Below are positions 1 through 17,267 of a DNA stretch of 64,000 nt, in pieces. Numbering within the stretch: the stretch's first letter is position 1; every line of letters begins with the position of its first letter. Source of the stretch: Dichotomocladium elegans (Eukaryota > Mucoromycota > Mucoromycetes > Mucorales > Lichtheimiaceae); the NCBI GenBank assembly GCA_025716815.1, contig JAIXMN010000020.1:372001-436000 (forward strand). Reading direction: 5' to 3'. A model generated the notes under the pieces. The model was not told the DNA's origin. It saw only the letters and a list, made by a program, of their open reading frames with translations, and made no database searches. Made by a program: the position numbers and the translations under genes.

Positions 1-1766
1 ATTTCATTAATCCTCCGGAAAAGATAGGATAAAATAGGATACTCTCATTTCACGAGATTCAATCAGTTCAGCTATCGTATATATTCGGCTGGCAGGTAGG
101 ATACGAATGGAACCAGTGGTATGAACTACTTAGACTGGTGTTTCCGTCCATAGGAGGGTTAAAGTAAATGGCGGACCTGCATAAAGCCGAAATGAAGGGA
201 CCTTCCACTGTGTCTGAACATGCCGATTAGTTTGAGGGAGTCTCCTGAGGATCCTTGCGAAAACCATCGGTTGAGGTCTAATATCCACTCTCTTAAAATC
301 TGCCCTTGTCGTCTGGCTTAGTATGACGACCGCCTTTATTCTGTTGAACAGAGACAGCCCTCGCTTTCTCACCATTCGCCACTAGAGTAACGGTGCCATC
401 CACAGTGCACTGTGCAACTGAACAGTTACTGATACATAGGCTACCTTTCTGTGGTTTACTTTTAATAGTTATCAGCGATATATTGTTCCTCTTTTGTATC
501 CAGTTCAAGTCCATTGATGCGAGTCATCAAAAGTGTAGTTCCATCTACATGACTTGAGCAGGCCTTAACTTGTAAAATGTCTTCCATCTGTGTAAAATCA
601 AGCGTTGGGAATAATGAAAAGAGCCGGCAAGAGATTATGTGAGACTCATTAAAGGATTGATTGTTTATTAAGATGCAGCAGGGCAGTGTATAAAATCATT
701 GATATGTTAATTGCTCGGGTACTGTCGTTGCACCGGCGGATGTTGAAATCTGTTCCCTGAATCTTGAGCCTAGACCATACAGCGCAATCACCACCGCCGT
801 ACAACGATAAATCTTACCCCATAGTATCCAAAATATGTGAATATGTGAGTGTGTAAGTGTCGATGTCATAATCTTTCTACATAGCGATGTCTGCAAAGCA
901 ATCAATTTCAACATGAATATTTTTCCACTGGTGTGCGGATCTTTTACATATTACTATACCATTGATCGAAGTGGAGGTATGACACAGTGACATGTCGAAG
1001 ACGCGTACAAAGGATATTCTGAAGTATGGTTAGACAACAGCTCCCAAGGTCTACGTCTTTACGTTTTCCAAAGCATTCTTTTTCTTTTAAGAAAAAAAAT
1101 CAAAATAAGCAGACAGAATGAGACCCCCATATTGCTCTTAATAAGCAGTAGACGTTTCTTCTTGAGAGGCAGCAAAGTGTTCTCTGAACATCTTCACTAC
1201 AAGTGGGACAGGCGTACCCACGCATGTTTGTGGCCGTTGGATATCTGTGTGGCGGTGGGTTTGAGGGACAATCGTAGTCCGGGATACTATTGACGATCAG
1301 GTATCGTTGGGTAGCTAGGGTAAAACCGACACAATGTCGCTACCTGAAAAAAAATTAATGGATTCGAACAAGATTACATCGCAACCCTAATTTCATGGGG
1401 TGATATCTGTCAGACATATGCCTATGGCTACTCTGCATATAACAAGGAAAAATAAAACAGTATGTGTCAAGTGAAAAAATCAGTCAAATTTACTGACAAT
1501 CAGGAAGTCTATACAGTCTGTGCGATCTTTCCCGAACCCATGTATTGCAAATTGCTATTTGAAATATTAAGCAAGTTGTACAAAATACTGTACGGTGTCC
1601 ACATACGATTTACGAGAAATTGTCTTGTACACAGAGATGAAATCTCTCGTTGTAAACCTTGTCAGACATAGAAACAATTCGTTGTGTCCAGCTATCAAAT
1701 AAAAGAAATTATGTCGACCCATATGCTTTCTTTTCAAATTCATGCAGTAGATTAGAACGCTAAATA
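1..1766. other. Gene-poor flank with duplicated 5' region of the methyltransferase array
   Basis: No convincing gene is visible. Short open frames on the minus strand between about 130 and 590 resemble no family I recognise. From about 1149 the sequence is closely repeated at about 3791-4427. It is the upstream part of the tandem unit carrying the methyltransferase copies, so its promoter probably lies in 1149-1766. An A-rich tract is seen at 1085-1110. Confidence 0.5.
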
Positions 1767-3193
1767 ATGTGCGGATGTGGACTTTTTAACTTCTTTTGCA
1801 AGAAACATTCACACCACTCTCGAAATATGGAAACGCACCAAGACCCAATTGATGAACACGCAACTCCTGAAAATCAAAGCATCCCGACGCCTGGATACCG
1901 CATCGAAGGGGGGAGGCGTTATTATGACCGAGAAAACATAGCGTATATTTTGCCTGAAGATGATGAAGGTTCGAAAAGAAAGAAAGAAAGCAAGAGAGAG
2001 AGAGAGGGGGGGGATGGTCAGTGAGTCAATGATATAAGTTGGATTAACCCTCATTGCATCTGAAGAAAATGACCGTGTTCATTTTCAGCATTGGCTTCTT
2101 AAAGCGGCCTTCAACGGCAATTACCATTCCCCAATCGAAGATGCACTTGTGAAAGGCATCCGCGTACTCGATTCCGGTTGCGGTAAAGACTTCTATCTTT
2201 TTGAACTGGATTGAGGATGTTACTGAGTTGCAATATATGACCATCATAGGACCCGGCACTTGGACACTTGATATGGCAAAGACGTATCCAAACTCAACAT
2301 TCTATGGAGTAGATATTTCGACCCGTTTCCCAGAAGCGATCAAGCCGCCAAACTGCCACTTTAAAGTCCACAATATATTGGAAACCAACGGTTTTCCAGA
2401 TAACCACTTTGATTTCATTCATCAGCGATTCCTCATCTTTGGACTTTTGAAGGACCATTGGCAAAATGTATGCTTTTTAAGACCAAAGTCATACTGTATT
2501 GTACTAACTTGATCAACAAGGTTATCACAGACTATGTGAATAAGCTAGCTCCAGGTGGATGGCTTGAATGTGCAGAAGTGAGTGAAAATGCAGTTTCATT
2601 GGATCAAAGTAATTCACAGTTAACACTGGTCCATTGTACGTAGCCTGCATTCGGTCTCTCGCATAATATAGGGCCAAAATATCAAGTCTTGATCAACGCC
2701 TGTATGGAACCAACGGCATCATCATTCCGCTCATATTACTGACAAGTGTTATCTTTTTGATTCACACTCCTAGTTGATGCCATGTGCCAAGCAAGAGGTC
2801 TTTCTGCACATATTTCAAATCACTTAGAGGATATGTTCAGAGATGCAGGTCTTATCAACATTGAACATAACGCGGCTGGTGGATCCATTGATGATGAGAC
2901 CCAGCTTGGAAAGCTTAGCTGGTAAAAGAGAGACAAATATCCGGCGGATACAAAGAAATCGAGAACGCCAAGCAAAATAAACTAATACCCGGCCACTTAT
3001 TAGGGAGGATTTCAAGAGCGTTTTCATCGGCCTTAAACCTGTGGTTTCCAGAGTTATGCCAGAAATAGAGAGCGACGAGAAATACGGAGCCTTCCTTGAC
3101 GAGGTGCGTCAAGAATGCATCGAGCGGAACACTCATACTATGGCTTATCGCATTTGGGGCCAGAAGCCTATGGTTGCAAAGGAAGAAGTTTAG
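1767..3193 (+). CDS. SAM-dependent methyltransferase, copy 1
   Basis: A class I SAM-dependent methyltransferase in about seven short exons; the substrate is unknown. Exons I can place are 1767-1968, 2066-2182, 2250-2467 and 2521-2577, followed by smaller ones to the stop at 3191-3193. Motif I is assembled across an intron as VLDSGCG then GPGTWT. It is followed by the acidic loop YGVDIS and by the fungal block HFDFIHQRFL, then LAPGGWLECAE (motif III region) and a C-terminal YRIWGQKP. The first intron begins GTTCGA, where copy 2 has a normal GTAATA, so splicing here may be weak and the copy partly disabled. The start is the Met of MCGCG, shared with copy 2. A small cysteine-rich N-terminus (MCGCGLFNFFCKK) is unusual for this fold and could be lipidated; that is inference. 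Confidence 0.75.
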
Positions 3194-3419
3194 CTATATA
3201 TAGAATATATAGACGAAAATACGGTACAAAATATAAAGAAATCCACCACCTCTTCCCGTTGACATTTGTTAAAAAAGGGGAAACTTACAGTGTGCTGTAA
3301 TCCAAGATTTCCTCCACACTAGATGACTGCAGCGCACACGTCGGGTTTTAGCGTATCTCGTGTACCTAATCCATATAGGGAAGACGGATGTAATAACACC
3401 ATCTCTTTCTTCAGAAACT

Positions 3420-3470
3420 ACTGGAATATTTAAAAACGTTAGATATTGAGATCAATGCAAATTTCCAGTA
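3420..3470 (+). pseudogene. Truncated scar of a further methyltransferase copy
   Basis: About 50 bp downstream of copy 1 matches the 5' leader of the third copy (6075-6126): the shared reading is roughly YLKTLDIEINANF. Similarity ends abruptly at about 3470 and no later exon follows before unit 2 begins at 3791. This is read as the remnant of a copy lost by deletion or replacement. Confidence 0.6.
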
Positions 3471-3790: not shown

Positions 3791-6126
3791 TAGACGTTTC
3801 TTCTTCTTGGGAGGTAGCAAAGTGTTCTCTGAACATCTTCACTACAAGTGGGACAAGCGCACCCACGCGTGTTTGTGCGTGTTGGGTATCTGTGCCGTAA
3901 TGGTTTGAGGGACAATTGTAGTCCGGGATATAGTTAAGGTTCAGGTATCATTGGGTAGATATGGTGAAACAGACACAAAGTCGTTCCCTGAAAGCTAATG
4001 GATTCGAACAAGATTAGATCGTAGAGATAATTTCATGGGGTGAGTATCCGTCAGACATATGCCTCCGGCTACTCTGCATATAACAAGGAAACAGAAAGCA
4101 GAATCTGTCAAGTGAAAAGATCAGTCAAAGTTACTGACAATCAGGAAGTCTATATATTCCTTTCGATCTTTCCCGAATCCATTTATTGTACAGAGAGATT
4201 ATGTATCGCAAATTGCTATTTGAAATATTAAGCAAGTTGTACAAAATACTGTACGGTGTCCACATACGATTTACGAGAAATTGTCTTGTACACAGAGATG
4301 AAATCTCTCGTTGTAAACCTTGTCAGACATAGAAACAATTCGTTGTGTCCAGCTATCAAATAAAAGAAATTATGTCGACCCATATGCTTTCTTTTCAAAT
4401 TCAGGCAGTAGATTAGAACGCTAAATAATGTGCGGATGTGGACTCTCTAACTTCTTTTGCAAGAAACATTCACACCACTCTCGAAACATGGAAACGCACC
4501 AAGACCCAATTGATGAACACGCAACTCCTGAAAATCAAAGCGTTCCGACACCGGGATACCGCATCGAAGGGGGGAGGCGTTATTATGACCGAGAAAACAT
4601 AGCGTATGTTTTGCCTGAGGATGATGAAGGTAATAGCAAATAAGACAGAGAGAAAAATACGAGATGATCAGTGAAACGATGATAAGAATCGGATTAATCC
4701 TCATTACATCTGAAGAAAATGACCGTGTCCATCTGCAGCATTGGCTTCTTAAAGTGATCTTCAACGGCAATTACCATTCCCCAATCGAAGATGCACTTGT
4801 TAAAGGCATCCGCGTGCTCGATTCCGGTTGCGGTAAATACGACTATCTTTTTGTGCTGAATTGAGGATGTTACGGAGTTGCAATATATGACCATCATAGG
4901 ACCCGGCACTTGGACACTTGATATGGCAAAGACGTATCCAAACTCAACATTCTATGGAGTAGATATTTCGACCCGCTTCCCAGAAGCGATCAAGCCGCCA
5001 AACTGCCACTTTAAAGTCCACAATATATTGGAAACCAACGGTTTTCCAGATAACCACTTTCATTTCATTCATCAGCGATTCCTCATCGTTGGCCTTTTGA
5101 AGGACCATTGGCAAAAGGTATGGTATTGAAGACCAGAGTCGATCCTGCACTGTACCAACTCGATCAACAAGGTTATCACAGACTATGTGAATAAGCTGGC
5201 TCCAGGTGGATGGCTTGAATGTGCAGAAGTGAGTGAAAATGCAATTTCATGGGATCAAACTAATTCACAGTTAACACTGGTCCATTGTACGTAGCCTGCA
5301 ATTTGTCTTTCTCATAACGTAGGGCCAAAATATCAAGTCTTGATCAATGCTTGTATGGAACCAACGGCATCATCATCACGCTCATATTACTGACAAGTGT
5401 TATCTTTTTTGATGGTCCTTCCTAGTCAATGTCATGTGCCAAGCAAGAGGTCTCTTTGCAGATATTCCGAATCACTTAGAGGATATGTTCAGAGATGCAG
5501 GTCTCATCAACATTGAACACAAAGTTGCTGGCGGGTCCATTGATAATGACACCCAGCTTGGAGAGCTTGCCTGGTAAAAAAAAAAAAAGAAACAAACGTT
5601 CGGCGGATACAAAGGAATAGAGGAATCCAAGCAAAATAGACTAATACCCAGTCATGTATTAGGGAGGACTTCAAGAATGCTTTCATCGGCCTTAAACCTG
5701 TGGTTTCCAGGGTTATGCCAGAAATAGAGAGCGACGAGAGTTACGAGGCCTTCCTCGAGGAAGTGCGTCAAGAATGCGTTGAGCGAAACGCTCGTGGTGC
5801 AGCGTATCGTATTTGGGGACAGAAGCCACTAGTAACAAACGAAGGAGTATAGCTTTATATAAATATATATATATACGAAGATCCTGTAAAAATTATAAAG
5901 AAAGCCCAGCGTCTCTTCCTGTTAGCTGTTAAAGAAGGAGATATCTACAGTCCGTAATAGCCACAATTTCCTCCATATTAGATGCCTGCAGTGCAGACGT
6001 CGGGTATTATCGTACCTTGTGTATCTAATCCGTATAGAGAAGATGGAGGTAATGACGCCATCTCTATTTCTTCATAAGCTACCAGACTATTTAAAAACGT
6101 TAGATATTGAGATCAATGCAAATTTC
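3791..6126 (+). repeat. Tandem duplication, unit 2 (methyltransferase locus)
   Basis: Second copy of the repeat described at 1149-3470. It contains methyltransferase copy 2 and continues into the divergent third copy. Differences from unit 1 are mostly point changes, plus a short insertion near 4190 and A-run length changes near 5578-5590. Confidence 0.8.
4428..5852 (+). CDS. SAM-dependent methyltransferase, copy 2
   Basis: Near-identical paralogue of the gene at 1767-3193 with the same exon plan: exons 4428-4629, 4716-4832 and 4900-5117, then a VITDYVNKLAPGGWLECAE exon and downstream exons to the TAG at 5850-5852. All splice sites that I can place are canonical, including GTAATA for the first intron, so this is the best candidate for a working copy. 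Motif I is VLDSGCG/GPGTWT, the acidic loop is YGVDIS and the HQRFL block is intact. The C-terminal exon reads EDFKNAFIGLKPVVS and ends in YRIWGQKP. Such genes form expanded families in Mucoromycota; this is from general knowledge and the substrate is not known. Confidence 0.8.
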
Positions 6127-8086: not shown

Positions 8087-8103
8087 ACAGTAAATTGTAT
8101 ACA

Positions 8104-8240
8104 CGATTTTTCAAAATCAAATTCGCACCCTGCCAGTTCTGAAGTCGCAGGATCGCAAAAATACAAATCGCATTTTTGCCCGGAAATCTTTACGCGTGAT
8201 GACAAAGCAAATGTCGCATACATACACGGAAAGATGTCGC
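8104..8240 (+). repeat. Left phased array of 22-24 bp TGTCGC units
   Basis: Six consecutive units end in TTCGC (8126), GTCGC (8148), ATCGC (8171), TACGC (8195), TGTCGC (8217) and TGTCGC (8240), giving spacings of 22, 23, 24, 22 and 23 bp. The outermost unit (ATTTTTCAAAATCAAAT) resembles the outermost unit of the right array read in reverse (TATTTTCAAAAATAAAT). The innermost ends AAAGATGTCGCAAATCCAT, against AAAGATTTCGCATCCAT on the right. This is the form of subterminal transposase-binding repeats. Confidence 0.65.
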
Positions 8241-8698
8241 AAATCCATCTCATCCTTATGACTCTTTCTCTTTATAAACTTTTACATTTTGAAATGAGCA
8301 ATCTATTATTTTACAACGATGGCCAAGGTCATGTCGCTGATGAGGAAATGTACTCACTTCAATCCGTTTGTTCTTACACTGAATATCTGCGTAGCATATC
8401 GTGCAAAGATAACTCTGAGTTTACTCTCACACACATTCCCAAGCGAAAGGATACATACATTCGGATGAAAGAAGCGGGGATCAAGGGCAATTACACAGCA
8501 TACACTGATCAAGGCAAGGTCAGATGTTTCAAATTGGTGTTTGAGGAGGTCTTGAGTGCATCCGTTGCTGGGAATCCATGTTCGTTCAGCCTAGCGATAT
8601 GGGCATTGCAGTGCGAGAAGGACCCTGACAGCATTTTAAGAAACGTAGAAGCAGAGGGCCGATCGTGTATTCTCAATGAAGAGCATTTATTGTTCTAG
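8234..8698 (+). CDS. Hypothetical protein, 154 residues, inside the Fanzor element
   Basis: Single open frame starting within the last left-array unit (ATGTCGC) and ending in LNEEHLLF. I recognise no domain. The protein is mixed hydrophilic with several cysteines, a YIRMKEAGIKGNYTAY segment and a LVFEEVLSASVAGNP segment, and no signal peptide or clear membrane span. Its position between the left array and the Fanzor gene makes it the only other candidate cargo of the element. It may be one exon of a larger decayed gene, and it could be spurious. Confidence 0.35.
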   Translation: MSQIHLILMTLSLYKLLHFEMSNLLFYNDGQGHVADEEMYSLQSVCSYTEYLRSISCKDNSEFTLTHIPKRKDTYIRMKEAGIKGNYTAYTDQGKVRCFKLVFEEVLSASVAGNPCSFSLAIWALQCEKDPDSILRNVEAEGRSCILNEEHLLF

Positions 8699-9143
8699 AA
8701 TGCAATTTTCGCTAAAAATAGCCGTACTCAAAAGAATCCTATATCGAGAAGACTAAGTTTATTCTTGGAAAGAACAAAGAACTATCGGAGCGTGCTTGTC
8801 TCTCTGTCAATGAGCCATTTAGCCTGGGGATTGTAACTCCGAAACTGGTTTCAAATGGAATAATGAAGTAATGGCTTTCAGGAGACTCCTGTGTTCTCAT
8901 TGTAATATTCAGAGAAATTATTCATTATGTACCTACACTTTCTGAACGTATGGATAAGGATGACAGCAGCGTCGTGTTTTGTTGTGTTGTAAGAGACTGA
9001 GAGAGTACGAAAAGAAATACAATCTTCCTACACTACACAAGGGCCGGATATGTATCGGATTATTCTTGAGATGGTCTCTTGGAATTACTTGTTGGAATTG
9101 TTTGGGATTTCATTGTTGATTTCAGACCTCCCTTACGTCGATA
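8699..9143. other. Non-coding stretch inside the Fanzor element
   Basis: About 445 bp with no supported ORF, lying between the hypothetical ORF and the MITE. Confidence 0.5.
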
Positions 9144-9315
9144 CAGTGGCCGCCCGTTATAGTGATACCCTCGGTTCCAGGAAATCGCATCACTATAATG
9201 AATTATCACTATAATGAATTGGAATAAGCCCTACCTGGCAATTTTGTCCTTCATAAAGTGTATCGCTATAACGAATTATCATTATAATGAATATCACTAT
9301 AACGAGCGGCCACTG
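9144..9315. mobile_element. Pogo-like (Tc1/mariner) MITE, 172 bp
   Basis: Terminal inverted repeats of about 24 bp begin CAGTGGCCGC on both strands and differ at one position (CCCGTTATAG against CTCGTTATAG). The element is flanked by TA dinucleotides at 9142-9143 and 9316-9317, the expected TA target duplication. The interior is filled with short repeats of AATTCATTATAGTGAT in both orientations, so the single strand can fold into a long hairpin. There is no coding capacity. The TIR form (CAGT...CGTTATA) fits pogo/Tigger-type elements. Confidence 0.8.
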
Positions 9316-9381
9316 TAAAACCTCATTAAAGAACCCAGTGGGAAAAAGAAAAACACTGTGGAGATGGATCATTGCTGACAC

Positions 9382-9389
9382 TATAAATA
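9382..9389 (+). promoter_or_regulatory. Candidate TATA box of the Fanzor gene
   Basis: TATAAATA lies 172 bp upstream of the Fanzor start codon, after the MITE and before any other feature. The sequence match is good, but position relative to a transcription start is unknown. Confidence 0.4.
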
Positions 9390-9560
9390 GTGATGCTCAA
9401 GCAAGCTGTTCCTTTCCATTATCCACATACAAAACTAGAGCCCATACAGCCTACAGAAAATAACACAGCACCACATTTACGGTTGAAAGGTAATACGGCC
9501 GCTTTCATACTCGGCTCTGCGATACTAAGAAATAATATACCCTAGGTCTTCACCCACCAA

Positions 9561-10331
9561 ATGGCCCAACCCCACCGCCCCGTCATTCACGAAGGTATGC
9601 GCACTGGCCACAGCATTGACCGCACTGGCCGTATAATTGGGGTGAAATCGTCCATACGGGGCATCGGCTGGCGACAGCAGTACCGTGAACGTCTGTATCA
9701 GTTGGTTGACCTTGTCCACAACACCACAACACAGGCGTACGCGTTCGCCAAATATATTTTCATCAACGAGGCAGCGCGCGATCCAACTTTTAACATCCAG
9801 GAAAACATCACGGAGAAGTTCTTTTCAGAAGTTTGGCTCTCCATGGTTAACAAAGCCGAACGCCGCACCCAAGGTGAAACTGCCCGCATCCGAGAACTAA
9901 TTAATCGCCACAAGGATGAGTACCTTCGGATATCCGGATACGACAGGCCTGCGTTCCCTTATTCCCAGCAATGTTCTTCTTACGAAGGCACCAAGATTTA
10001 TACTGCTTACGTGAATAATGTCCACATGCGGTTCGGGCAACACCTTCGGCGTGTCATCAATGTCATCCTGAATCTTCGTCAGCGAAAAGCCGACCGCAAG
10101 CGAGAGTTAATTGCACAGGGCCTAAGCCCCGATCAAGTACGCCAGGACCTTTATGAAACCATCACCCGGCATGCCACAGGATTCAAGCTAGCAATTGCCC
10201 GTCGAGGTGTTTTGAGGGAAGACATTAATGCCGAACCTGGATTTCTTCGGGAAGCATACGATATCCTACAACCTGTCTTAAACGCTTACCCCCGAAACCA
10301 CCAATTCCAACACCAGAGTATCTATTACGAC
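9561..10331 (+). CDS. Fanzor N-terminal portion (residues 1-257)
   Basis: Begins MAQPHRPVIHEG and ends HQSIYYD at the insertion point. The frame then runs eight codons into the LTR (CFITSGSK) to a stop at 10356-10358. This half is helical and basic, containing the recognition-type N-terminal region but no RuvC motif. Any product from the present allele would lack nuclease activity; it might still bind RNA, which is inference. The start is the first ATG after a TATA candidate, and no upstream in-frame ATG fits. Confidence 0.8.
10327..10331 (+). repeat. Target site duplication, left copy (ACGAC)
   Basis: Five bases immediately before the left LTR are ACGAC; the same five follow the right LTR at 15451-15455. 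Five-base duplications are normal for Ty3/gypsy integrases. Confidence 0.95.
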
Positions 10332-10480
10332 TGTTTTATCACGAGCGGAAGTAAGTGAGACTGGATAAAGGTGCTCTTTATTGTACCATGAGCTGCCTCG
10401 CTATAACAAATTGGTAAGCGGTGTTTCACGAGCTACTAAGAAGGTCATGTGATCTCCGCTCTAGAGTGATAACTACAACA
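10332..10480 (-). repeat. 3' LTR of the chromovirus (149 bp)
   Basis: Identical to 15302-15450. In element orientation it begins TGTTGTAGTT and ends GATAAAACA. It contains AATAAA, a plausible polyadenylation signal, and TTATAG upstream of it. At 149 bp it is short for a chromovirus. Confidence 0.95.
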
Positions 10481-10616
10481 TTACCCCCCACCAGGTTGAA
10501 GTCAACCGTCTAATGCCAATGAATCCAAGCATATGCAAGTGAATGAATAAAAGACCAATTCCTAGAAACATCTGCAAAACCCTAAAAAACCCAGTGGGAA
10601 AAAACGGGAAAGACGT

Positions 10617-13600
10617 TTACTTGCGCGAACGCTTAGAGCGCCTAGGGCTGACCGTTTCGGTTGGCTTCCTCTTGTTTCTCCTTGTGTATGGAGCACAGGT
10701 GTCCTCAGTTACATTTTGACATGTACTACTAGACTCTAATCTGCCATTCATATTGATAGCAGCTTGCCTGCGTTTCCAGTATTTGTCTATAATACTGAGG
10801 TCGTTAAAGTTGGTGGCAGGTTCCCACGTGTCATCCTTTGCGGAATAGCCTTTCCAGCGGCAAAGGTATTCATATTTTCCACGTGTGCCTCGATGGTTGA
10901 TGATTGCTTCAATCTCATAGAACTGATCATCCGATACAAGAGTATCTTTCGAAATGGCTTTGAGATGGTTTACAGGAACGTCACGTGAAAGCAGATCATT
11001 GTCTTCATCGGCGAGGACATAACTATTGCCTCTACGACCTACCACAGTGAACGGGCCTTCGTAATTTTGGTCCGTCTTTGTCTTTTTGTCCATATTAAGG
11101 ATCATGACTTTTGTACCAACCGGATATTGTTCGACAATTCTATGTGTTCTTGCGAAATTGCGTTGGTCAATATCGTGTACTGCTTTGATGCGCTTTCTAA
11201 TAGCCGGAATGACCACAGATTGCATTTGTGCGACAATCATGTTCCTTTTTTCTACATCCTTCATTGAAGATTCGGATGACTTTTGCTTGGTGTAATCCAC
11301 AAATTCATTCGGTTGTCTACCAAACATGAGTGCAAAAGGTCGGCTGTTATGAAGCCGGCTATACTTGCAATTGATTGCATATTGTGCAGACGGTACATAA
11401 AGATCCCAATCATGCTTGACACCTTTTAAGGATTTCATGATGACCATTTTTGCAGTGTGTACCCATTTCTCTGCTACACCATTTGCACTAGGGTGATAGG
11501 GTGTTACACGGCGATGATCGACGCCACAACAATCCAGAATATTATCTACTAATTCATTAACAAACTCCCTGCCATTATCAGATTGCAGTGCTCTGGGGAA
11601 TCCAAAATCACAAAATATTTGCACCAGCTGCATTGCAATTGTCAGAGAGGACTTGTCAGGTATGGCGCGTAGAACACAGAATCGAGTGAAGATATCCACC
11701 AATACGAGCATATAATTGTTGCCTCTTGCAGATGTAGGAAATTCTCCTAGGTCGATAGCCCAATGTGCTGCTGGTTCATTAGAGTAAACATTACGTAGCG
11801 GATGGTACCCACGCTTCGTGATGGAGAATTGTTGGCAAGTTTGACATTTCGAAACCAACTCTAGAGCTTCTTTCTGCATGTTTGTCCAGTGTATACCATC
11901 ATTATGTAGGGTCTTGACTATGTGATCTACACCAAAGTGACCCAACAGATGCGCTTTTTCCAACAACTGTGTCCGTTCATTCTCTGGTGGCGTCATGTAC
12001 TCTGGTCGCGTGACAGCTGCGACTGTGGGAGTTTTCAAAAGCACAGGCGTATTTGGGACATTACCCCTCACCAGCTCTTTTTCCGGAGGGAACAGACGAG
12101 AAAGAGCGTCAGGCAACACGTTAAGTACACCAGGACGATGCACAACCGTGAAATTGTAATCGCAAATGGCATCTAACCATTGGACCATCATAGGATTAGC
12201 AATGGGTTGCGTGTGTAAATAGACGAGGGCTTTGTGGTCCGTGTATAATGTGAATGGACAACCCCACAAGAACTGGTGAAATTTCTTGAATGCATACACA
12301 ACGGCCAGCAACTCTCGCTTCGTGACAGAATAGTTGCGCTCTGATGGCGACAACGCGCGCGCAACAAAACCAATGTAGCATGTTCGATTTCCACGCGTTT
12401 GGTACAAGACAGCACCAATACCACTATTTGAGGCGTCAGTTGCGACTTCAAAAGGTAAACTCAAATCTGGGAGACTGAGAACAGGTGCGCTTTGTAATAA
12501 TTTTTTGATGGCTTCAAAATGACGGAGGTGTGATGGTGTCCATAGATCTTTCAATGATCCAGCATTACGTAGGCTATTCAGCGGTGCCGTCAACTGAGAG
12601 ATTTTGGGTAGATGGTCGCTGAAGTAATTAACTAAGCCCAGAAATCTTTGGATGTCTTTACCCGATTGGGGAATGGGCCATGTCATAACATTGGACACTT
12701 TCCGGGGATCCACCGAGACTCCTCGGGCACTAACACAGAAGCCAAGTAGGTAGACTGACTGCTGTGCAAAATGGCATTTGTCTGGGTTGAGAATCAAGTT
12801 GACCTTTGTGAGACGCTCTATAGCATCTAACACATGTCCACGATGTTCTTCCATGGAGTTTGAGAACACAACAATGTCATCAACAAAAGCAGTGACATAA
12901 CGAACATCCCGGAACAACAGGTTGATAACCCGTTGAAATTTAGATGATATGGGTTTAAGTCCGAACGGACAACCTTTGAACATATACTGTATATCGTTGA
13001 AAGTGAAGGTAGTCTTATGTTGATGTGGTTCATAAATCTTGAAACGGTGAAACGCATTCTTCAAATCCAATGTGGTAAACACACGAGCACCGCGCATTTT
13101 CAAGAACACATCCTTGATCAGAGGAAGCGGGAACCGATCATCAGGTAGTAAATTGTTGATATGCCGAGGGTCCAGGCATGGTCTACGATCACCAGTATAA
13201 TTGCCTTGAGCATCTTTCTTTGGGGCGAAAGTAAGAGGACTATTCCATCCATTGTTACGTGGAGCCAAAGTGATAATATTATCTGCTAACCACTTGTCAA
13301 TCTGTTTCTGCAACACGTCATGCAAAGCATATGGCAACGGATACTGCCTTCTATGTGCAACCTTATTAGGGGGAGTGTCTAAATAAATAATTGACTCAGG
13401 CATTGTACAGAAAGATGACATAGGAATGTTTCCATTACGTTCCATAGCAGGACGAATTAAATCCATGAACTGTCTGTGCTCAGTCGTCGTGCCAGCTGGA
13501 GACGCATTGGGTTCTTCTTCAGCAACAATTGGATCAATTGCTTTTTGCGTATTGGGACGAATCCAACCTGTTGCCATACCTCCAACAAACAAACCAATGT

Positions 13601-14801
13601 GCTGCCATATGTCAATGCCCAAGATAAGGCCAGTTTCATCCTCTACATCCATGACCTCAAACTCATGTTGCACTGATTTCCCATTGTGAATGATGTTAAG
13701 GTTAACGATGCCAATACGAGCAACCGTTTCCTTTTTGACTGCTAGTTTTATTTCACCCTCGGCAGGTTGAATAGACCACTTGAAAGAGGCGCACAAAGAG
13801 GGGCTAACTGCGGATATCGTCGCAGCACTGTCAACCAAGGCAAACAACTCCTGATCATTCACAATAACAGGAACATGGTAAGTCTTCGCTTGAACTGAGT
13901 TGGTAGTACCCATGGCAAGCAACTTACATTGCTGACTGAGGTTGTTAAGCTCAGCATCGATGTCTAGCATATGGACATCATGCTCCATTGGCCACTGCAA
14001 ATCAGCAAGAGCATCCTCGTCGACACCCAATAAGCTCTTGTCAACTTGCAATCGGGGTGCGATATCCGTTTGAGTGCTGACGGATAATGCGCTCGTGTTG
14101 GGCGCCGAAGACGAACCAAAGGCCGGGATTACAGCACCAGATGCCGAAGCGACTGGAGCAACACGAGCAGAAGACGACACAGCCGAAGCGTTGAAACCTG
14201 ACTTCTTAGGTTTCACCACACGCGAGAACGCGCGGACCACTCTAGTTTCCTGAGGCTGATGACGTGAGCCTCTCACCTCCTTGCGCTTATCTGCGCATAT
14301 GTGTCCTGGCTTCCAGTTAGGAGCCTGGCACCGATAGCATGCAGTTCTATCGAATTTGCGCTTTTCCTTGTGTTCCCCACGGGGGCCAGGCGAGCGCGAC
14401 GCCGAACGACCAGAGTGGCGGGAGAATCGGGACGAGCGGGACATGGAGTCACCACCAGAAGAACGTTCACTAACCCCGAATAGAGCCGTAGGCTCAAAAT
14501 AGGTGCGAGCAATAGCAGCTACTTGTACTGCTGTTGCTCTCTCCTCCAAGGGCACACGCATCAACTTTGCAATTACCTTCTTATTCATGCTACCTGGAAA
14601 AGAGCCCACTAAGATAGCAGCTACCACCGGTCCATCTTGGAAACCTGCCCGCATGCACAGGTCCTGGAACCGGGCAATATGCTCGTCATACGTTACCCCC
14701 TTGCTCAACCGGAGTTTGACGAGTTCGTCAGCAGCCAAAACACGTCGGTCTTCGTCCAACGCACCATACTGCTTCAGAATACTAGACGCACTATCGACCA
14801 T
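10617..14801 (-). CDS. Chromovirus Gag C-terminus and Pol polyprotein with chromodomain
   Basis: 1394 codons without a stop. In order: the rest of Gag with a CYRC...PGHIC zinc-binding motif (about residue 155-170), an aspartic protease (LVDSAAT, about 320; Ala replaces the usual Gly after DS), reverse transcriptase (FTTLDLKNAF and the FVDD catalytic box at about 637), RNase H (ATDASNSGIGAVLY), and integrase with an HHCC zinc finger (H/H then CQTC). The integrase DDE core is WAIDLG at about 1015, SDNGREF at about 1075 and the Glu in GVAEKW near 1110. A chromodomain follows (YEIEAIINHR...YLCRWKGY, about 1291-1345), then a basic tail. The chromodomain puts it among chromoviruses, which use it to read histone marks at the target. 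Confidence 0.95.
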   Translation of the reverse strand: MVDSASSILKQYGALDEDRRVLAADELVKLRLSKGVTYDEHIARFQDLCMRAGFQDGPVVAAILVGSFPGSMNKKVIAKLMRVPLEERATAVQVAAIARTYFEPTALFGVSERSSGGDSMSRSSRFSRHSGRSASRSPGPRGEHKEKRKFDRTACYRCQAPNWKPGHICADKRKEVRGSRHQPQETRVVRAFSRVVKPKKSGFNASAVSSSARVAPVASASGAVIPAFGSSSAPNTSALSVSTQTDIAPRLQVDKSLLGVDEDALADLQWPMEHDVHMLDIDAELNNLSQQCKLLAMGTTNSVQAKTYHVPVIVNDQELFALVDSAATISAVSPSLCASFKWSIQPAEGEIKLAVKKETVARIGIVNLNIIHNGKSVQHEFEVMDVEDETGLILGIDIWQHIGLFVGGMATGWIRPNTQKAIDPIVAEEEPNASPAGTTTEHRQFMDLIRPAMERNGNIPMSSFCTMPESIIYLDTPPNKVAHRRQYPLPYALHDVLQKQIDKWLADNIITLAPRNNGWNSPLTFAPKKDAQGNYTGDRRPCLDPRHINNLLPDDRFPLPLIKDVFLKMRGARVFTTLDLKNAFHRFKIYEPHQHKTTFTFNDIQYMFKGCPFGLKPISSKFQRVINLLFRDVRYVTAFVDDIVVFSNSMEEHRGHVLDAIERLTKVNLILNPDKCHFAQQSVYLLGFCVSARGVSVDPRKVSNVMTWPIPQSGKDIQRFLGLVNYFSDHLPKISQLTAPLNSLRNAGSLKDLWTPSHLRHFEAIKKLLQSAPVLSLPDLSLPFEVATDASNSGIGAVLYQTRGNRTCYIGFVARALSPSERNYSVTKRELLAVVYAFKKFHQFLWGCPFTLYTDHKALVYLHTQPIANPMMVQWLDAICDYNFTVVHRPGVLNVLPDALSRLFPPEKELVRGNVPNTPVLLKTPTVAAVTRPEYMTPPENERTQLLEKAHLLGHFGVDHIVKTLHNDGIHWTNMQKEALELVSKCQTCQQFSITKRGYHPLRNVYSNEPAAHWAIDLGEFPTSARGNNYMLVLVDIFTRFCVLRAIPDKSSLTIAMQLVQIFCDFGFPRALQSDNGREFVNELVDNILDCCGVDHRRVTPYHPSANGVAEKWVHTAKMVIMKSLKGVKHDWDLYVPSAQYAINCKYSRLHNSRPFALMFGRQPNEFVDYTKQKSSESSMKDVEKRNMIVAQMQSVVIPAIRKRIKAVHDIDQRNFARTHRIVEQYPVGTKVMILNMDKKTKTDQNYEGPFTVVGRRGNSYVLADEDNDLLSRDVPVNHLKAISKDTLVSDDQFYEIEAIINHRGTRGKYEYLCRWKGYSAKDDTWEPATNFNDLSIIDKYWKRRQAAINMNGRLESSSTCQNVTEDTCAPYTRRNKRKPTETVSPRRSKRSRK

Positions 14802-15292
14802 GAAAACTCACGGCAGTTGCGCAGGGTACTCATGTACCACGTGCGCTGACGAGGCGTGATGCACAAAGGCAACAAGCGAAACCAGTCAAGATCGACGTCA
14901 AGGTTGTGGGCTTCAACAACCATTTGAAACTCATAAAGAGCTGATTCCACGTCCGGTTGGACGGGACGCTTGGGGTCAACCACCAAGTCTGGCCACTGGA
15001 AATAAGGAAGACCAGTCGGAATGCCCGAGGAGTTCGATACTCCATTACGAGGCGAGACCGACGATTCCAAATGAATGGTTCCAGGGGGAGCATGGCACGC
15101 ATAGCGCACTGCTAACTCCTTCAAAACAGCCATTCTGCTGAAGTTCGCCTCCTCTCTTCTTGCTTCATCGTGTTTCGCCAAGACTGACAGTTCCTGCGCC
15201 TGGACAAAGAGTTGGTTCACCGAAAGTGACGCGAAGTCATTGGTGATGGCGTTGGTGTTGGCGATGGTGGCAGACATGGTAAGAGAATTCAC
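14774..15292 (-). CDS. Chromovirus Gag, N-terminal ORF
   Basis: 172-codon ORF starting within 20 bp of the 5' LTR, either at MNSLTM or at the next Met (MSATIANTN). It reads into a capsid-like region (FQWPDLVVDPKRPV, LPLCITPRQRTWYM) and stops 28 bases inside the next ORF, which lies in the -1 frame. The next ORF opens with the expected continuation of Gag, so the two are probably joined by ribosomal -1 frameshifting at a GAGTTTTCATGG stretch near 14800. A frameshift mutation is the alternative, but the identical LTRs make long decay unlikely. Confidence 0.8.
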   Translation of the reverse strand: MNSLTMSATIANTNAITNDFASLSVNQLFVQAQELSVLAKHDEARREEANFSRMAVLKELAVRYACHAPPGTIHLESSVSPRNGVSNSSGIPTGLPYFQWPDLVVDPKRPVQPDVESALYEFQMVVEAHNLDVDLDWFRLLPLCITPRQRTWYMSTLRNCREFSWSIVRLVF

Positions 15293-15301
15293 TTAAAAAA
15301 A

Positions 15302-15450
15302 TGTTTTATCACGAGCGGAAGTAAGTGAGACTGGATAAAGGTGCTCTTTATTGTACCATGAGCTGCCTCGCTATAACAAATTGGTAAGCGGTGTTTCACG
15401 AGCTACTAAGAAGGTCATGTGATCTCCGCTCTAGAGTGATAACTACAACA
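15302..15450 (-). repeat. 5' LTR of the chromovirus (149 bp)
   Basis: Identical to 10332-10480. In element orientation the base run directly after this LTR is TTTTTTTAAGTGAATTC, not the TGG that starts a tRNA-complementary primer site. Confidence 0.95.
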
Positions 15451-15455
15451 ACGAC
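15451..15455 (+). repeat. Target site duplication, right copy (ACGAC)
   Basis: Matches 10327-10331. Counting only one copy, the Fanzor reading frame passes directly from Asp 257 to the Ala codon at 15456. Confidence 0.95.
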
Positions 15456-16883
15456 GCCAAGGCCAATCCTGTTAAGCATTTCAACGCCTTCTTCCAGCTT
15501 GCACGCGTTTGTCAACAGAACGGAATACGCGGATTCAACTGTTTTCCACTTCGTCGCTCGTGGTCACCATGCTACATGGAGATCGATACGAAAATCCTTT
15601 GCTACCATATCCTGGGCTGCAAAATGGAATCCCACACAAGCAACATGGAGTACTGGAGACGTGTTGTAAACCTGAAATCAAGAGCTTTCAAACCCCAAGA
15701 ATCCGAGCTGCTCCAATTCCGTGGGACTATTCACACTGACGGCGTCGGTGTTACTGTGTTCAAGAAGACAAATGGCCTTCCATCGGGTTTCGGACAGAGA
15801 TTTGACATCCAGAGCGAAGATATCGAATACGTCACCCCACAGATAGTCCGGAACGAAGACTATAGAGGACAATGGGTCACCATTGATCCTGGCAGAAGGG
15901 ACCTGTTGTATTGCGTTCATGAGAACTCGTCACCCGACAACCACCAGACCTTCCGATATACAAAGCAGCTTCAAGATCATACACGGAAGACCAAACGGTA
16001 CCGCAGACTCCGAGAACGACTCAAGTTAGAGCGACCCGAGGTCGCGTTGGCTGAGCAGAATCTATCTCAATTTCAAAGTCATACGCTTTCCGTGCCCAAC
16101 TACGACGGATACCTCGCCGCCAAGAATCGGGTCTCTGTAGTTCTCAAGTCTTTCTACGCGACAACCACTACGAACCACCCGAACCCGCAATTTCTTTTTC
16201 GAAAACTTCGCCTGTCAGCGTTTTACAAGAAGCAGCAAGCAGATGAAAAGCTTCTCGACTCTTTGAATGCGAAGTTTGGCAGTAGGTCCGTTTTCGTGAC
16301 GGGAAATTGGTCTGCGCCGCATACAAGATATCACGAGCCTATCCGTGGTGTCGGCTTCCGGCGGCTGTTGAAGAAGAACAATTGCAATGTTTATTTGATC
16401 GACGAGTACAAGACAAGCAAGTGCTGCCCTGTATGTGACAATGAAAGCCTTGCTACCTTTAAAATGGTTCCTAATCCACGCCCATATCGACGACCCGACA
16501 ATCCGCTCACGATCTGCCATGGCCTGCTACGGTATGAAGGACGGGCATGTTGTGTTATATTTCCAAAAGATTATAATACAGTATTTTGATGTTTCAATAG
16601 ATGCACAAATCAAAACTGTACAGCAGGCATGGCAGAGGGTGTTTGTCAACCAAGGTTATGGAACCGGGATCTGGCGGCGGCTCTCAACATGCATCATATC
16701 CTCCGGGGTCTTCGGGAAGATGGTATCATCCCAGCAAGGTTCCAGAGAAGAAATGCTGCACAAGCATCCGCAGCTGGTGGAAGGCCACACTCACCTGAAC
16801 CAGAGCAGCGCAGCGTGAGACCACGACGGGCAAGGCCAGGAAGGCCACGAGGTGCACGCTCTGGCGGGTCGAGACGACCGTAA
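15456..16883 (+). CDS. Fanzor C-terminal portion (RuvC and zinc ribbon), spliced
   Basis: Open from 15456 with no stop until the intron at 16532. The first internal Met is at 15576 (MEIDTKILCY). Exon 16601-16883 completes the zinc ribbon and carries RuvC-III. The intron is GTATGA...AATAG; without splicing the frame stops at 16587-16589 and RuvC-III is lost. A product from the internal Met would hold all three RuvC motifs but lack the N-terminal half. The C-terminus is low-complexity and basic (RRARPGRPRGARSGGSRRP). Confidence 0.85.
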
Positions 16884-16889
16884 CCCCAA

Positions 16890-17030
16890 CCAAGTATTTT
16901 CCGCGTCAGTTATCGCTGACGCACCCAGGATAACCACAGCCCTTCGGGGCAAGCCCCCTTCCTTTGGAAGGACGGTGTGTTGTAAGTCAACGGGATTGGA
17001 GAAGGCGTAGTATTTTTCTGTTGACTAACA
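16890..17030 (+). ncRNA. Predicted Fanzor guide-RNA scaffold
   Basis: Starts within 10 bases of the Fanzor stop. Hairpins visible: GCGTCAG (16903-16909) with CTGACGC (16916-16922), loop TTATCG; GCCC-TTCG-GGGC (16939-16950), a UUCG tetraloop; CCTTCC-TTT-GGAAGG (16957-16971). There is also a longer-range AGTCAAC (16985-16991) with GTTGACT (17020-17026). Four stems packed into 125 bp next to a TnpB-like ORF is the arrangement known for TnpB and Fanzor guide RNAs, which overlap or follow the 3' end of the gene. The RNA ends and the guide segment cannot be fixed from sequence alone. Confidence 0.65.
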
Positions 17031-17047
17031 GGGTTTCATCCATGGAT

Positions 17048-17160
17048 GCGAAATCTTTTTGCCTATTGATACGACAAATTTATATAATTCAATGCGACAT
17101 TTTTCTTGTATTTTGCACGACATTATTTTATCTTGTTTACGACATTTATTTTTGAAAATA
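17048..17160 (+). repeat. Right phased array of 22-23 bp RCGACA units
   Basis: Units begin GCGAAA (17048), ACGACA (17071), GCGACA (17094), ACGACA (17117) and ACGACA (17139): spacings 23, 23, 23 and 22 bp, about two helical turns. The spacers are AT-rich. Orientation is the reverse of the left array at 8104-8240, so both arrays point inward. The array starts about 20 bp after the last predicted guide-RNA stem. Confidence 0.65.
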
Positions 17161-17162
17161 AA
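17157..17162 (+). terminator. Candidate polyadenylation signal after Fanzor
   Basis: AATAAA on the plus strand about 275 bp after the Fanzor stop, at the outer edge of the right repeat array. The facing gene ends at 17268, leaving room for cleavage of both transcripts. Confidence 0.35.
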
Positions 17163-17267
17163 GTATTACTAAGAAAAGAAGAGAATGCCAAAGATGGATG
17201 GGAAGCGGAAGAATTTTGGATATACACATGCTCCTCTTCTTAAAAAAAATTGCAAGATTATGTGATT

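Follow-up and report, generated by a model that had tools for sequence, protein, structure and literature searches.

An interrupted Fanzor1 gene in Dichotomocladium elegans and a candidate omegaRNA at the right end of its mariner-derived element

Introduction

In SPu-1, the Fanzor1 element of Spizellomyces punctatus that encodes SpuFz1, the omegaRNA lies 3' of the gene and extends to the right end, the guide is in the flank, the TAM is CATA, and a conserved CA stands ahead of the left repeat (PMC10432273, cited sections). For three Fanzor1s, omegaRNAs of 75-150 nt are given in the cited part of PMC11423790. The biological role of Fanzors has been stated as unknown, and help in trans to other transposons has been proposed (PMC10432273). 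Already in print, as far as the cited sections go, are Fanzor1 genes in mariner elements (PMC3627910) as well as ghost loci and Gypsy/Ty3 insertions (PMC10432273).

Here, we describe a locus of Dichotomocladium elegans (Mucorales). The DNA under study, called the window throughout, comprises 64,000 nt (assembly GCA_025716815.1, contig JAIXMN010000020.1:372,001-436,000, forward strand). An earlier note on this DNA had recognized a Fanzor gene at 9561-16883, complete but in two parts, and our analysis confirms it as an interrupted Fanzor1. That reading is incomplete: the gene is one of many copies in a mariner-derived element, and the structured RNA at the right end of this element is the more informative part of the locus than the split gene.

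Results

The split gene encodes a Fanzor1 protein

The features of the locus are collected in Table 1. An open reading frame is present at 9561-10358, and the C-terminal frame is open from 15456. Summed from pieces that were read apart, 257 + 358 + 1 + 93 residues give the joined frame of 709 residues that the earlier note had proposed. Its other particulars hold as well, and in our reading they comprise the following: the 69-bp intron, GT...AG with an in-frame stop inside; IDPG at RuvC-I from residue 400, with Asp 401; the zinc ribbon, with CCPVC from residue 580 (Cys 581/584) and CTNQNC from 617 (Cys 617/622); Asp 639 in WNRD of RuvC-III; the ACGAC duplication flanking the LTRs; and the absence of any lesion besides the insertion, both pieces being free of further stops or frameshifts outside the intron. 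The intron separates the two zinc-ribbon pairs, the second of which is encoded past it, as exon 2 begins at residue 617. Both exons are matched in five further elements (C40, C79, C57, C68 and C47), and in each the protein match breaks at this intron site.

Table 1. Features of the Fanzor locus in window coordinates
Feature	Position	Strand	Basis or remark
Whole Fanzor-carrying mariner-derived element (family A), LTR insert included	8098..17165	+	copy-similarity limits, junctions
Left end with the terminal repeat TATACAC...; TA at 8100-8101 as putative target duplication	8098..8127	+	left junctions
N-terminal remnant of a mariner-like transposase	8234..8695	+	68% identity to 475-aa frame
Small stretch with 26-bp inverted repeats, in siblings' upstream loci	9142..9317	.	
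Fanzor exon 1, first piece (residues 1-257)	9561..10331	+	frame reading
ACGAC target duplication, left copy	10327..10331	+	
LTR (3' LTR of minus-strand retrotransposon)	10332..10480	-	identical to 15302-15450
Ty3/gypsy pol: protease-like, RT, RNase H, integrase, chromodomain	10617..14801	-	Pfam; protease matches below cut-offs
gag reading frame, probable start	14774..15292	-	by position; no Pfam match
LTR (5' LTR of minus-strand retrotransposon)	15302..15450	-	
ACGAC target duplication, right copy	15451..15455	+	
Second piece of Fanzor exon 1, with IDPG of RuvC-I, the DEYKTS glutamate and the first zinc-ribbon pair	15456..16531	+	
Intron, 69 bp, GT-AG	16532..16600	+	same break in other families
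Fanzor exon 2, with the second zinc-ribbon pair, WNRD and the stop codon (16881-16883)	16601..16883	+	
Candidate omegaRNA scaffold (right end)	16896..17165	+	RNAalifold and window minimum-energy fold; 6-bp closing stem
First hairpin GCGTCAG-TTATCG-CTGACGC	16903..16922	+	covariation across families
UUCG hairpin GCCC-TTCG-GGGC	16939..16950	+	only two pairs in consensus folds
GAAAAT at right terminus, predicted pairing with ATTTTC 16896-16901	17154..17159	+	practically invariant
Putative TA target duplication (17164-17165) and flank, would-be guide source	17164..17200	+	flanks of listed copies differ

The protein carries the described marks of the class. The Fanzor1 motif, D-x(125,275)-[TS][TS]-xx-C4 zinc finger-x(5,50)-RD (PMC3627910, cited part), is matched by D401, KTSKCCPVC, the second Cys pair in exon 2 and D639 of WNRD, as checked by eye. 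Fanzor1 proteins are further marked by DPG at RuvC-I, by a glutamate about six residues ahead of the zinc finger, and by the Fanzor TDG motif in the WED domain (PMC10711439, cited part); the window protein has IDPG at 400-403, E574 in DEYKTS with Cys at 580/581, and TDGVGV at 351. An uninterrupted sibling, L002, strongly matches solved Fanzor1 chains of the PDB. The closest by sequence are PpFz1 (E 1.6e-117), whose match runs in two stretches and skips a part that is absent here, and SpuFz1 (E 4.3e-43). By motif, D401, E574 and D639 correspond to D383, E541 and D606 of SpuFz1 (PMC10432273), the alignment covering the first two motifs and ending ahead of the third. The protein database yielded 118 matches, the best 48% identical (Mucor mucedo) and none naming D. 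elegans as its source. Pfam says almost nothing about this protein: the C piece matches PF07282 weakly (E 0.0079, below the cut-off), and the N piece has no Pfam match.

Siblings without the insert encode the same protein, with 93-98% identity over the C part. Because of these siblings and the match of L002 to solved Fanzor1 chains, the gene is not a chance frame. The window copy differs from its siblings at several amino acids; one such difference is VTGNW (16290-16310), which reads VMGNW in L002. Together, the sequence data support a Fanzor1 gene into which a young LTR retrotransposon has inserted, and this allele was likely working before the insertion.

The insert is a Ty3/gypsy retrotransposon

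The 5.1-kb insert lies on the minus strand, and its LTRs, TG...CA, are identical over 149 bp. With LTRs, a target duplication, and the order RT, RNase H, integrase, it has the features of the Ty3/gypsy class, to which we also take its pol domains (RT, RNase H, integrase, chromodomain) to assign it. The gag region seems to be spread over two overlapping minus-strand frames (14774-15292 and 10617-14801). The LTR is widespread in the genome, and since all 149 bases are matched in 13 of the 40 scored matches (the two of the window included), the family has been active recently. The window copy was broken recently. As Gypsy/Ty3 insertions in Fanzor loci have been reported before in Spizellomyces (PMC10432273, cited part), a Fanzor gene split in this way is not new.

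The gene belongs to a high-copy mariner-derived element

Without the insert, the element measures about 3.95 kb (window 8098-17165 less the insert; one sibling was read whole). Copy similarity stops at 8097/8098 in all six upstream loci and at 17165/17166 in 15 of 23 aligned plus-oriented copies, six further loci having been left unturned. The C-terminal Fanzor piece has at least 116 matches in the 39.4-Mb genome; this search scored 109 of 643 candidates, and two further copy searches scored 40 each, so that all copy numbers are lower bounds. Among the 29 loci compared with the window (L002-L030, 93-98% identity), exon 1 is open from the start through all tested motifs in 15, and 14 fail this strict test. 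One 1235-bp copy (L062) has kept both ends and the right-end RNA and lost most of the gene, which makes it a ghost in the sense of PMC10432273, where SPu-1 loci lacking the gene are described.

Upstream of the gene, the window copy retains only the N-terminal remnant of a transposase, presumably HTH-like and without a Pfam match. Over 120 residues (32-151) it shows 68% identity to the beginning of an open frame of 475 aa, found in C44 and C57 (L069, L068), that also matches PF13358 DDE_3, which we take to denote a transposase of the Tc1/mariner superfamily. The elements with the DDE_3 match have the left end in common with family A, the family of the window copy. L069 and L068 are 98% identical over 2.75 kb and diverge abruptly near the Fanzor intron (L069 ~3188); exon 1 was not found in C44. 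The 176-bp inverted-repeat stretch at 9142-9317, which also concerns L067, L070 and L071, matches at about 80% a piece upstream of a reversed Fanzor in C68, where the Fanzor proteins are only 45-52% identical. Around the element, the window holds two direct copies of a 2.3-kb stretch (1156-3465 and 3801-6126, 87% identical) and, to the right, pieces of a zinc-binding dehydrogenase, a chitin synthase, a homeodomain protein, TBC and an M13 peptidase, as in an ordinary fungal chromosome.

TA is present at both ends of the element, which by eye form imperfect inverted repeats. All 27 examined left junctions of family A start with TATA. On the right, an exact end pattern has 286 genomic matches and none in the reversed control, and among 25 paired copies AAAGTA is followed 24 times by T and once by C. 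That next base depends on the type of the adjoining RNA, types A and D having been assigned by eye: it is a pyrimidine in 35 of 35 cases with A-type RNA and a purine in 22 of 28 with D-type RNA (Fisher p 7e-12; 63 pairs, formed from the 100 RNA places and 143 exact right ends that were listed; these right ends comprise all 43 purine ends and 100 of 118 pyrimidine ends). We had considered ends of the form TATACAC...AAAGTA with a variable right TA, and dropped them because TA directly before CAC and after AAAG fits other families better; in C68, C47, C57 and C90 the right flanks are G, G, A and G. The simplest reading of the junctions is a TA duplication outside CAC...AAAG with family-specific neighbour bases. 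A nested insertion at C28 is uninformative about the duplication, since the related host sequences themselves read TATACAC. When the joined flanks (45+45 bases) of 25 elements were compared with the genome, 40 of 55 candidates were scored, and all 40 were flank halves at their own loci; as this search revealed no empty site, both the target duplication and the TAM are putative.

Whether the bases at the ends reflect a TAM is a close call. TA is the site chosen by mariner elements, the A and D types may differ in their transposase, and the +1 base goes with the type, so that the bias of the first flanking base and the left TATA could express target preference of the transposase only. We give this account, with no TAM at all, a chance slightly short of even. 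Two parallels speak against it: SpuFz1 is similarly arranged, its TAM being CATA and a conserved CA preceding the left repeat (PMC10432273), and the TAM of PpFz1 is ATN (PMC11423790, cited part). They fit a TAM without proving one, and by analogy with SpuFz1 the left bases may serve as such.

The right end carries a conserved RNA structure

Between the stop codon of the Fanzor gene and the right end of the element lies a region that we regard as a candidate omegaRNA scaffold, with a predicted length of about 270 nt. The Fanzors of families A and B are 55-57% identical; at their right ends the two families have in common ATTTTCCG, a hairpin with loop TTATCG, the UUCG hairpin and the right terminus. 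RNAalifold and the minimum-energy fold of the window both pair ATTTTC with GAAAAT, which closes the region. Since both motifs are invariant, this closing stem lacks support from covariation. As a whole, the region has only a mild folding advantage over its shuffles (z -2.1 and -2.0), of which 4 in 200 fold equally well.

The first hairpin was compared among families A and B plus C57, C68, C47, C90 and C28. Over 13 distinct rows from five right-end types, 97.8% of 91 cells are paired, the two unpaired cells both being in L085, and both sides change in five of the seven pairs. Its covariation is 0.678 as against 0.296 in shuffles, a score reached by 0 of 500 of them. None of the 500 shuffles reached the hairpin in cells paired or in cells with two-sided changes either, but 5 reached its number of pairs with two-sided changes and 1 its number of further pair types. 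Sliding the partner lowered pairing to 23-60%. With families A and B alone, two of the five measures were ordinary (344/500, 486/500). Many of the rows represent copies within a single family, so that there are far fewer independent changes than cells.

An RNA model matches the window with 89.8 bits, by construction, since the window sequence is inside the model; at gathering threshold, Rfam gave no match in the window. The pattern GTTATCGC-N(20-45)-CCTTCGGGG has 113 exact matches in the genome and 0 in the reversed control. It covers types A and D only, because the gap in types B, C57 and C28 is 17, below the required 20-45.

A conserved palindrome could also be a DNA feature, a binding site or cruciform for the transposase, and its presence wherever a right end was found in the fully examined element types, with or without a Fanzor, would suit such a role. 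A binding palindrome would however be expected to keep its letters, whereas here the letters change and the pairing is kept, with U-G and G-U intermediates; moreover, at the left end of the window element the model detects no further copy. We therefore think it improbable that the palindrome acts as DNA rather than RNA.

The RNA seems to go with the right end rather than with the Fanzor gene

In families A and B, the RNA follows the Fanzor on the same strand. In C68, C47, C57 and C90, the left end is followed by a transposase (+), a Fanzor (-), the RNA (+) and the right end; in C57, the frames of the transposase (475 aa) and of Fanzor exon 1 (609 aa) are both open, and in C90 the Fanzor is reduced to a remnant. 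These four (C68 at 491-498 kb) are the loci with RNA and right end among seven examined with a transposase and an opposite-strand Fanzor. The fetched stretches of the other three (C46:255400-260900, C68:1-5600 and C44:467700-474300, the last matching exon 2 only) contained neither RNA nor right end, and since the right end too was not found there, they neither confirm nor deny the rule.

The genome-wide count extends this picture. Within 7.5 kb upstream of 100 listed RNA places (of 113), a Fanzor match was found on the same strand for 45, on the opposite strand for two and not at all for 53, relative to 116 Fanzor places (a lower bound) and 150 of 173 N-terminal ones; 72 of the listed DDE_3 places were used alongside. 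For 56 RNA places (the 53 without detected Fanzor, the two opposite and one same-strand), a larger part of the listed DDE_3 rows was checked, and in 13 of them a same-strand DDE_3 match starts at most ~1.06 kb upstream, which leaves no room for a Fanzor. Three of these 13 were fetched, and all three have left end, transposase, RNA and right end in about 2 kb and no detected Fanzor match; their transposase frames look broken, as the matches fall into several stretches. At C28:508901-510659 (L053, L073, L094), there are transposase matches and a right-end RNA, with a Fanzor fragment just past the right end.

At every right end that could be examined together with its surroundings, the RNA is present irrespective of the direction or presence of a Fanzor, with one exception, a family A copy at C68:396000-396920 that has the right end and no match to the RNA model. 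The occurrence of the RNA in elements without a detected Fanzor, or with a reversed one, suggests that the omegaRNA is part of the transposon end and not of the nuclease gene, and means that the motif is not simply the 3' UTR of Fanzor mRNA. An ordinary Fanzor gene that a retrotransposon has recently disrupted, followed by hairpins that belong to its mRNA 3' UTR or to a transposon-end structure and guide nothing, would agree with the known Gypsy/Ty3 insertions in Fanzor loci (PMC10432273) and with the silence of Rfam, but is an improbable account, given stem changes that are compensated over five right-end types around a nearly constant loop and the motif at right ends with no detected or a reversed Fanzor.

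The opposite-strand Fanzors do not form one clade. In a tree of 37 rows (7 of our own and 30 of the 118 database matches, with a long-branch warning that includes C57), the C57 Fanzor joins families A and B, and those of C68 and C47 join Mucor and Rhizopus sequences. These two separate positions suggest that the orientation changed more than once or that genes were exchanged.

Discussion

Our data suggest a model that we consider highly probable as a whole: the window locus is a dead member of a high-copy family of mariner-derived, non-autonomous elements, which carry a Fanzor1 gene and an omegaRNA scaffold, take their guide from the right flank and are mobilized in trans. Of this, the sequence data establish the gene and its copies, the ends of the element, the LTR insertion and the conservation of the RNA structure. 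For the intact siblings, the mechanism is modelled on known Fanzors. The right-end RNA would be expressed, and genomic DNA just to the right of the element would supply the guide. The nuclease would load this RNA and, as analogy with characterized Fanzors suggests, cut an unoccupied site beside a TATA-like motif; repair from the occupied copy would then restore the element, to its benefit. Mobilization in trans could be provided by mariner elements with common ends.

Homologous right-end RNAs are found in transposase-only elements, in Fanzor elements of either orientation and in a gene-less ghost. We see even chances that the guide RNA belongs to the mariner right end as such, and that a common pool of Fanzors could act on it in trans and protect or spread the DDE family. 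If so, shared Fanzor proteins would act on many guides and serve a whole family of cut-and-paste transposons. The idea of help in trans is directly testable in D. elegans, because ends and right-end RNA are common to transposase-bearing and Fanzor-bearing elements and many copies are nearly identical. The compensated hairpin also offers a way to seek omegaRNAs away from any Fanzor gene.

In the consulted parts of the open-licence Fanzor/TnpB literature, we came across neither transposase-only elements that carry the RNA nor a Fanzor whose RNA lies on the other strand. PGv-1, PUl-1 and PUl-4 resemble the D. elegans elements in that their Fanzor1 is accompanied by a mariner transposase, or else by TA duplications and repeats of a mariner-like kind; a right-end RNA common to transposase-only and Fanzor elements was not found in the cited part of PMC3627910. 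The MCi elements of Mucor circinelloides and ROr of Rhizopus likewise comprise several Fanzor1 families in Mucorales, but were filed under MuDR or as unclassified, not as mariner, and the cited part of their description of 2013 mentions no guide RNA (PMC3627910).

PpFz1 of Parasitella parasitica is the closest solved structure by sequence to the D. elegans sibling, and its match is split around a stretch absent in D. elegans, which we take to be the FRI insertion (PMC11423790). Its omegaRNA is reported as 75 nt, and the ~270 nt predicted here exceed the whole range given for the three Fanzor1s (PMC11423790), which speaks against our preferred explanation.

SPu-1, finally, is like the D. elegans element in many respects: its Fanzor1 lies between inverted repeats, an omegaRNA 3' of the gene reaches the right end, some loci are ghosts that lack the gene, bases preceding the left repeat are conserved, and there are Gypsy/Ty3 insertions (PMC10432273). 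However, the authors who described SPu-1 detected no transposase inside its repeats (PMC10432273, cited sections), whereas in D. elegans related ends enclose a transposase and the RNA, with the Fanzor undetected or reversed.
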